This document shows positions 13,850 to 25,850 of a DNA stretch of 36,298 nucleotides, in pieces; the stretch's first letter is position 1; each line of letters begins with the position of its first letter. The stretch is from Bernardetia sp. (GTDB lineage Bacteria > Bacteroidota > Bacteroidia > Cytophagales > Bernardetiaceae). The stretch covers positions 119,618 through 155,915 of the forward strand of contig NZ_JAHDIG010000002.1 in NCBI RefSeq assembly GCF_020630935.1, read 5' to 3'. The position numbers and the translations under genes are program-made. The notes beneath the pieces are model-generated. The model was given only the letters and a program-made list of their open reading frames with translations, did no database searches and was not told the origin of the DNA.

Positions 13850-13965
13850 GCTCAACACTATAAAAAACTATTAAAAGTTATGTGTTTGCAGAGATGAAAA
13901 TAACATTTGGCTTAATAATAGGGTTGGATATAGAAAATATGAAGGGCTGAATAATTACCCTTTTT

Positions 13966-14045
13966 TAGAGTACTGGATATGAACAGATATTTGCTGTTTT
14001 AGCATAGCGATACCAACAACTTTTTATCTTATGTCTAGTACTCTA
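13966..14045. mobile_element. MITE-like element, short copy (80 bp)
   Basis: It begins TAGAGTACTGGATATGA and ends with an imperfect inverted copy (TAGTACTCTA at 14036-14045). It shares with the element at 25711-25834 the internal string GATATTTGCTGTT on the left and GCGATACCAACAACTTTTTA on the right, but lacks about 44 central bases. Flanks ACCCTTTTT (13957-13965) and ATTCTTTTT (14046-14054) are a 7/9 match, as expected of a decayed 9-bp target duplication. It lies between cobT and the DUF2141 gene. Confidence 0.75.
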
Positions 14046-14074
14046 ATTCTTTTTAACTAACCTAGTTTACTAAT

Positions 14075-25640: not shown

Positions 25641-25698
25641 AAAAAACCACTACAAAGTTTGTAGTGGCTTTAAAGTTTCGCTACTACTACGTATGCGA
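25641..25698 (-). terminator. Conserved terminator element, copy A
   Basis: On the minus strand CCACTACAAA and TTTGTAGTGG (25667-25647) form a stem followed by six T residues (25646-25641). It is preceded by a conserved string CGTAGTAGTAGCGAA (near 25690-25676). The same arrangement occurs at 30315-30375. It sits 150 bp past the stop of the gene remnant at 25851, with the MITE-like element between. Confidence 0.8.
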
Positions 25699-25710
25699 TA
25701 TACTTTTTAT

Positions 25711-25834
25711 TAGAGTACTGAATATCAATAGATATTTGCTGTTCTGTGAGTCACGGCACAGGGAAAAGTACCGTTCGTTGGCGTTTTAGTGTAGAGCGAT
25801 ACCAACAACTTTTTATCTCATGTCCAGTACTCTA
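25711..25834. mobile_element. MITE-like element, long copy (124 bp) with 9-bp target duplication
   Basis: Terminal inverted repeats start TAGAGTACTG on both ends (10/10) and continue imperfectly to about 17 bp. A perfect 9-bp direct repeat ACTTTTTAT flanks it immediately at 25702-25710 and 25835-25843. It contains the same left and right blocks as 13966-14045 plus ~44 central bases that include CTGTG-agtcacgg-CACAG. It has no coding capacity, so it must depend on a transposase in trans. Target duplication length fits families such as IS1 or IS4, but no transposase was seen to confirm either. Confidence 0.85.
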
Positions 25835-25850
25835 ACTTTTTATGTTTTGA

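Follow-up and report, generated by a model that had tools for sequence, protein, structure and literature searches.

A stretch of 36,298 nucleotides (hereafter the window) from the draft genome of Bernardetia sp. (G000; 4.75 Mb in 153 contigs) contains a 124-base element that raises the question of what it is, how it came to be there and which enzyme could have moved it. Read directly, the element occupies positions 25711–25834 on the forward strand, begins with TAGAGTACTG at 25711, ends with CAGTACTCTA at 25834 and is bordered by an exact 9-bp target duplication (9/9; ACTTTTTAT at 25702–25710 and again at 25835–25843). Between its terminal inverted repeats lie two palindromes on the same strand: hairpin 1, CTGTTCTGTGAGTCACGGCACAG (25739–25761; family consensus CTGTTCTGTGAGTCACAGAACAG), located by a pattern match at G000:C2:145356 and from the family consensus, and hairpin 2 (25777–25806), a diverged version, placed by eye, of the palindrome TTGTTGGTGTTTTAGCGNAGCGACACCAACAA found throughout the genus. 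The matching inverted ends and the exact duplication given in the preliminary description are confirmed by this reading, as is the lack of coding capacity at the level of open reading frames (ORFs) of at least 100 aa, none of which overlaps either this element or the second copy in the window (shorter ORFs lie outside the listing). The feature is real and has the attributes of a MITE, i.e., a short sequence (50–1000 bp) devoid of a transposase gene, with terminal inverted repeats and a target site duplication.

The second copy, which is likewise short and without a transposase gene, spans only 80 bp (13966–14045, forward strand) and is flanked by ACCCTTTTT (13957–13965) and ATTCTTTTT (14046–14054), which agree at 7/9 positions. 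When the two copies are compared by eye, they differ by a 2-base indel and by a single deletion of some 42 bases, which lies between GCTGTT and GG(T/C)GTT and thus starts in hairpin 1 and stops in hairpin 2, for a net length difference of 44 bases, so that both the 44 missing central bases and the imperfect duplication reported earlier hold. The 80-bp copy had been taken to be either older or a deletion derivative: by sequence comparison, it is an internal-deletion derivative, while its greater age, judged from the 7/9 duplication, is plausible.

Both copies are intergenic with respect to ORFs of at least 100 aa, and each lies just upstream of one ORF (the 124-bp copy about 60 bp from an ORF ending at 25650, the 80-bp copy 29 bp from 14075). 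Such positions, along with the strong structure of the element, would suit an intergenic repeat that is not itself mobile, resembles a terminator or regulator and was spread by recombination. As a sole explanation, this is refuted by empty orthologous sites, and the target duplications also speak against it, which leaves it with next to no probability. In two other genomes of the genus (G003 and G004), a single ATTTTTTAT, identical to ACTTTTTAT at 8/9 positions, stands exactly at the insertion point of the window element, which is absent; this is the single copy that the preliminary description had expected at sites lacking the element. Scored by local alignment, the joined flanks without the element do better than the filled site (167 v 100 in G004 and 156 v 96 in G003). 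The empty form also scores higher in G001 (115 v 87), G002 (118 v 99) and G005 (133 v 87), where the alignment is poor right at the insertion point. The element entered this locus by insertion, with duplication of 9 bp of the target.

From the two copies in the window, many had been predicted for the genome, and at least 41 matches to the window element were indeed recovered in G000 at E <= 1e-27 (40 of 132 candidates scored), the window copy diverging by 6.6% from the G000 consensus. G000 has 198 occurrences of the end pattern when 2 mismatches are tolerated, vs. 37 of the reversed control, and on either strand the predicted fold of the window element outscores 199 of 200 shuffles; taken together, these figures make the element more than a product of chance. 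Target duplications recur across the family, as had been anticipated. Among the 65 paired-end copies in the G000 stretches examined (75–180 bp in length, each end having 3 mismatches or fewer, flanks unfiltered), the flanking 9 bases match at 9/9 in 34 and at 8/9 in 11 (45/65 at 8/9 or better), vs. 14 of 4160 mismatched G000 flank pairs reaching 8/9. For the genome G006, the corresponding figures are 22/28 paired-end copies at 8/9 or better and 6/756 in the control. The 60 duplications of at least 8/9 pooled from G000 and G006 are 82% A+T, their first base being A in 39 and their last base T in 45.

With regard to taxonomic distribution, the full element is confined to G000 and G006 among 11 genomes of the family Bernardetiaceae, so that the copies sought in relatives exist in 1 of the 10 other genomes. 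G001 to G005 have partial matches only, mostly to hairpin 2. The four Bernardetiaceae genomes outside the genus yielded no match at E <= 0.001, and 194 genomes sampled from the order yielded none outside the genus at E <= 1e-5 (up to 4 candidates being scored for each genome). Full-length copies of 121 bp make up 20 of the 44 matches in G006, and 19 of them show pairwise differences of 0–4 bases. This near-identity, combined with the frequent intact duplications, indicates that the family moved and spread recently in G006. At one locus of that genome (L288, contig C17), a MITE has inserted, with the duplication TTTAGCGAT, into a copy of the genus palindrome that stands alone.

The preliminary description could not assign the family to a known IS and suggested a search for a complete IS having the same ends and a transposase. 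When the six sister genomes were searched for such ends, inverted pairs of TACAGTACTGGACAT were found 1208 bp apart, and eight copies of this IS were fetched (2 from G001, 5 from G004, 1 from G005). Six of the eight have their own exact 9-bp duplication, the exceptions being the G001 pair, the members of which are inverted, 11 kb apart and have a single 9-bp duplication, ATTCCCAAA, common to their outer sides. The pair and its cargo (L370, G001:84560-98175, about 13.6 kb) fit a composite transposon; recombination between the two copies was also considered but dropped, because the common outer 9 bases fit a composite transposon better. Among the products of the cargo ORFs is a protein of 1547 aa that weakly matches RHS repeats.

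Each of the eight IS copies contains a homologous open frame, the G001 ORF encoding 373 aa in one copy. Against Pfam, the transposase matches DDE_Tnp_1 above cut-off (E 1.1e-16), whereas its best NCBIfam match, the curated model transpos_IS4_2 (E 7.9e-37), reaches 127.1 bits, below the 152-bit cut-off; among solved structures, its profile has no match at E <= 1, and a scan of genome contigs gave 3 distant relatives only. Four homologues agree without exception at D109, D174 and Y270-R273-E277-K284. D109, D174 and E277 on the one hand, and Y270, R273, E277 and K284 on the other hand, supply the hallmarks described for the IS4 family, D(60~110)D(100~150)E and Y(2)R(3)E(6)K (PMC2266710). The sister-species IS also resembles this family in its single ORF, its length of 1208 bp and its 9-bp duplication, the family value being about 10 bp. 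Its ends (TACAGTACTGG) begin with TA, unlike the signatures in the consulted rows of the subgroup table, such as CA for IS4Sa and CT for IS10 (PMC2266710). Considering the scores below cut-off and the lack of a matching signature among those rows, the sister-species IS may represent an unlisted IS4 subgroup.

Compared with the end of this IS, the window element is identical at 14/15 bases on the right and 12/15 on the left, so that the MITE shares its ends with an autonomous element of G001, G004 and G005; beyond the ends, no similarity between MITE and IS was seen by eye that would point to an internal deletion of this IS. The family can hence be assigned after all, namely to an IS4-family element of 1208 bp with ends TACAGTACTGGACAT in three sister species, and the search for a full IS succeeded there with nearly the same ends, but not in G000 itself. 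Neither the G000 nor the G006 assembly has a homologue of the IS transposase at E <= 1e-10. DDE_Tnp_1 genes do exist in both (3 in G000 and 2 in G006), but the loci examined, which include some that stop short at a contig end, show no correctly oriented pair of MITE-type ends. In both drafts, contigs break inside MITE-type repeats, and it is possible that an IS copy was lost or collapsed there.

Several contigs of G000 that carry the MITE end at their edge were considered as carriers of a complete IS and rejected. At the contig ends of C103, C82 and C28, the extra sequence, common to all three, resembles by eye not the partner IS but the IS110-family gene of locus L206, which matches Pfam Transposase_20 and DEDD_Tnp_IS110. 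In these contigs, at the end of L064 and the starts of L102 and L103, the right-half palindrome of the MITE is joined, again by eye, to an apparent piece of an IS110-family gene; REP palindromes are often targeted by IS110 elements. Contigs C39, C49, C18 and C81 have a different repeat in common: their starts (L035, L130-L132) carry a repeat of about 54 bp ending in AAGATAAGG, which is probably the edge of another collapsed IS. As for C132, it encodes a 694-aa ORF, along with others, in the first 4000 of its 4483 bases.

In the family consensus, the interior of the element holds the palindromes CTGTTCTGTGAGTCACAGAACAG and GTTGGTGTTTTAGCGTAGCGACACCAAC. With up to 3 mismatches, the hairpin-2 palindrome TTGTTGGTGTTTTAGCGNAGCGACACCAACAA occurs 42, 71, 25, 30, 63, 112 and 150 times in G000 to G006, respectively (the counts for G000 and G006 including MITE copies), and never as the reversed control. 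In each of the seven genomes from the genus, this palindrome also exists as a stand-alone repeat. Hairpin 1 is found without the upstream end in 6 of 73 G000 rows (L319, L323, L325, L326, L328 and L329). In the sister species, ten MITE-like elements (G001, G003 and G004) have the same end type, with a 9/9 duplication in 7/10, yet their palindromes differ. Those of G001 include, for instance, GTCGGTGTCCCCACCGAC and GTTGGTGTCCCCACCAAC, and those of G004 are of imperfect GACACTTT..AAAGTGTC types. Across 349 loci, GTCGGTGTCCCCACCGAC lies away from any end at two places (L156 and L294), while GTTGGTGTCCCCACCAAC occurs only beside an end. In minimum-energy RNA folds of the sister-species MITEs, the palindromes mostly pair with each other, only L216 folding as two separate hairpins among 8 full-size elements; on this evidence, the term “two hairpins” was dropped for them in favour of “two palindromes”, some being imperfect (G004). 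Covariation within the hairpins was computed on 37 of 55 aligned G000 copies, after dropping the 18 that depart by more than 25% from the consensus. Double changes number 5 in hairpin 2 (shuffle maximum 4), 2 in hairpin 1 (maximum 3) and 0 in the ends (maximum 5), which is weak as proof of selection through compensatory changes and was not used as evidence.

On the sequences compared, the ends are near-constant and the palindromes variable across sister species. MITEs are usually accounted for as IS remnants. A tentative and rather doubtful idea would be that the IS4-type ends are a cassette that repeatedly acquires pairs of REP-like palindromes of the genus, giving rise to new MITE families in different species, with transposition or its repair stalling at the first hairpin and so producing the half-elements described below, some of which have target duplications of 24–83 bp.

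The stand-alone occurrence of the hairpin-2 palindrome in all seven genomes could also suggest that the element is of REP/REPIN type and owes its mobility to a RAYT, a HUH tyrosine transposase, its inverted ends being incidental. A Y1/RAYT-like gene of G000 (L134:168-707, contig C28), scoring 76.1 bits against NCBIfam REP_Tyr_transpos, just under the cut-off of 80, adjoins copies of this palindrome. Nevertheless, REPINs are RAYT-dependent palindromes dispersed without target duplication, whereas the family studied here has exact 9-bp duplications in 34/65 copies and conserved inverted ends of DDE type, closely resembling those of a DDE-type IS in related genomes. HUH transposition is not known to make a 9-bp target duplication. 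An origin by RAYT is therefore very unlikely.

Besides full copies, the family includes half-elements, composed of one (left) end and the first palindrome. Hairpin 1 with its GGGAAAA tail was found in 73 rows of G000 (including two palindromes counted on both strands) and at 53 places of G006, and not once in the control. Once sorted (55 rows being used for G006, some of them repeats), these yielded 19 units with the left half only (13 in G006 and 6 in G000) and 81 with a second hairpin or a right end. This count leaves out units with ends of more than 5 mismatches (15 in G000 and 3 in G006, including L314, which has a 16-bp flank repeat), sets aside 10 rows cut by contig ends or stretch limits and classes L270 as full owing to a nearby stand-alone palindrome; moreover, since the pattern contained GGGAAAA, breaks inside hairpin 1 would escape it. 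Among the 13 halves of G006, 12 carry CAGGGAAAA and lose their match to the full element no more than a few bases further on.

In five of these 13 cases, the half is followed by a copy (24–83 bp) of its own upstream flank, which extends precisely to the element's first base. The copy measures 83 bp at L266, 76 bp at L269, 42 bp at L276, 34 bp with one mismatch at L288, and 24 bp at L310, there after a 10-bp piece that, with 4 more bases, matches 88 bp upstream. The alignment scores of these five duplications (48–161) exceed the maximum of 37 obtained for 342 mismatched pairs of upstream and downstream flanks. The other 8 halves of G006 have no flank copy reaching the element, L273 scoring 35 and stopping 14 bases short; in G000, L100 also scores 35, with a flank copy that reaches the first base. 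Lone right ends in G006 occur only at contig ends among the matches listed. Regarding the 20 single-end stretches of G001, G003 and G004, two from G001 (L362 and L363) stop just after the palindrome (GGCAAAG), at the same relative place, the remainder being units cut at other points, complete elements or fortuitous matches. A RAYT-type origin of the half-elements was rejected, since their duplications extend precisely to base 1 of the end.

We propose that the MITE is moved in trans by an IS4-family transposase and that the half-elements may arise when the process stops after hairpin 1, an explanation that, as a whole, we consider very probable. A cut-and-paste transposase of this family would act in trans on the MITE, recognising ends of the type TA(G/C/A/T)AGTACTGGACAT (the IS4-type partner would bind TAGAGTACTGGACAT), and would duplicate 9 AT-rich bases at the target. 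Its source would be the sister-species IS, or a close relative missing from both draft assemblies. Occasionally, transposition or its repair would abort at the first hairpin: a strand primed from the target would copy the left end, just joined, together with hairpin 1, synthesis would halt just after the latter, and the stalled strand would switch to the flank on the sister copy lacking the insertion, leaving a half-element and a long duplication. Tn5 is an IS4-family element. In the model published for it, replicative and conservative outcomes are branches of a single pathway, and halves do not feature in the account consulted (PMC2723962).

An alternative is that replication slips back at hairpin 1, tandemly duplicating the flank and the left half, the full MITE being later lost precisely through its 9-bp repeats. 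Locus L266 displays the intermediate that such slippage would predict (the half-element, the 83-bp duplicated flank, then a further MITE running to the contig end), and this locus, which fits a tandem duplication as well as an aborted insertion, makes slippage followed by loss a serious rival. Five longer copies of G006 (L197, L262, L263, L265 and L268) likewise have internal tandem duplications after the same hairpin. Yet, against this single intermediate, four loci (L269, L276, L288 and L310) have the long duplication without a MITE, and precise excision of IS4-type elements is rare. We thus regard slippage followed by loss as possible but somewhat unlikely for the halves in general.

Known systems share parts of this picture. 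With the sister-species IS of the IS4 family, the MITE of G000 has in common the length of the duplication and, at 14 of 15 and 12 of 15 bases, its two ends, while being gene-less. BrickBuilt, from Porphyromonas gingivalis and hence from the same phylum (PMC4596501), and MITEPsy1 (PMC3189936) are likewise short and gene-less with IS-like ends, but these ends are of IS5 type (“IS5?” for MITEPsy1) rather than IS4 type, and the descriptions consulted include neither a genus-wide palindrome pair nor half-elements with long duplications. CIR of Caulobacter has two hairpin arms and a linker, like the Bernardetia MITE, and YPAL of Yersinia (YPAL/RU-2) has variable duplications of 3–26 bp; those belong to whole elements, whereas the long duplications reported here flank halves and whole copies keep 9 bp, and the review does not mention IS4 for CIR or YPAL/RU-2 (PMC2229807). 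REP and REPIN sequences (PMC3116915, PMC2817692) are short palindromes, single or paired, in high copy number, as in Bernardetia, where, in contrast, the palindromes sit within DDE-type ends and 9-bp duplications. In the titles and abstract openings of the top-ranked open-access literature, we found no description of the Bernardetia family, of palindrome-pair MITEs with IS4-type ends or of half-elements with long duplications.

The family is ordinary in kind as a MITE, and its variable palindromes and half-elements, neither of which figured in the preliminary description, go beyond the ordinary MITE. If the proposed mechanism were confirmed, the half-elements would provide evidence from natural DNA of how transposition or its repair can be cut short by a hairpin, and G006, in which the family was recently active, would offer a system to test whether a DDE transposase spreads REP-like palindromes.
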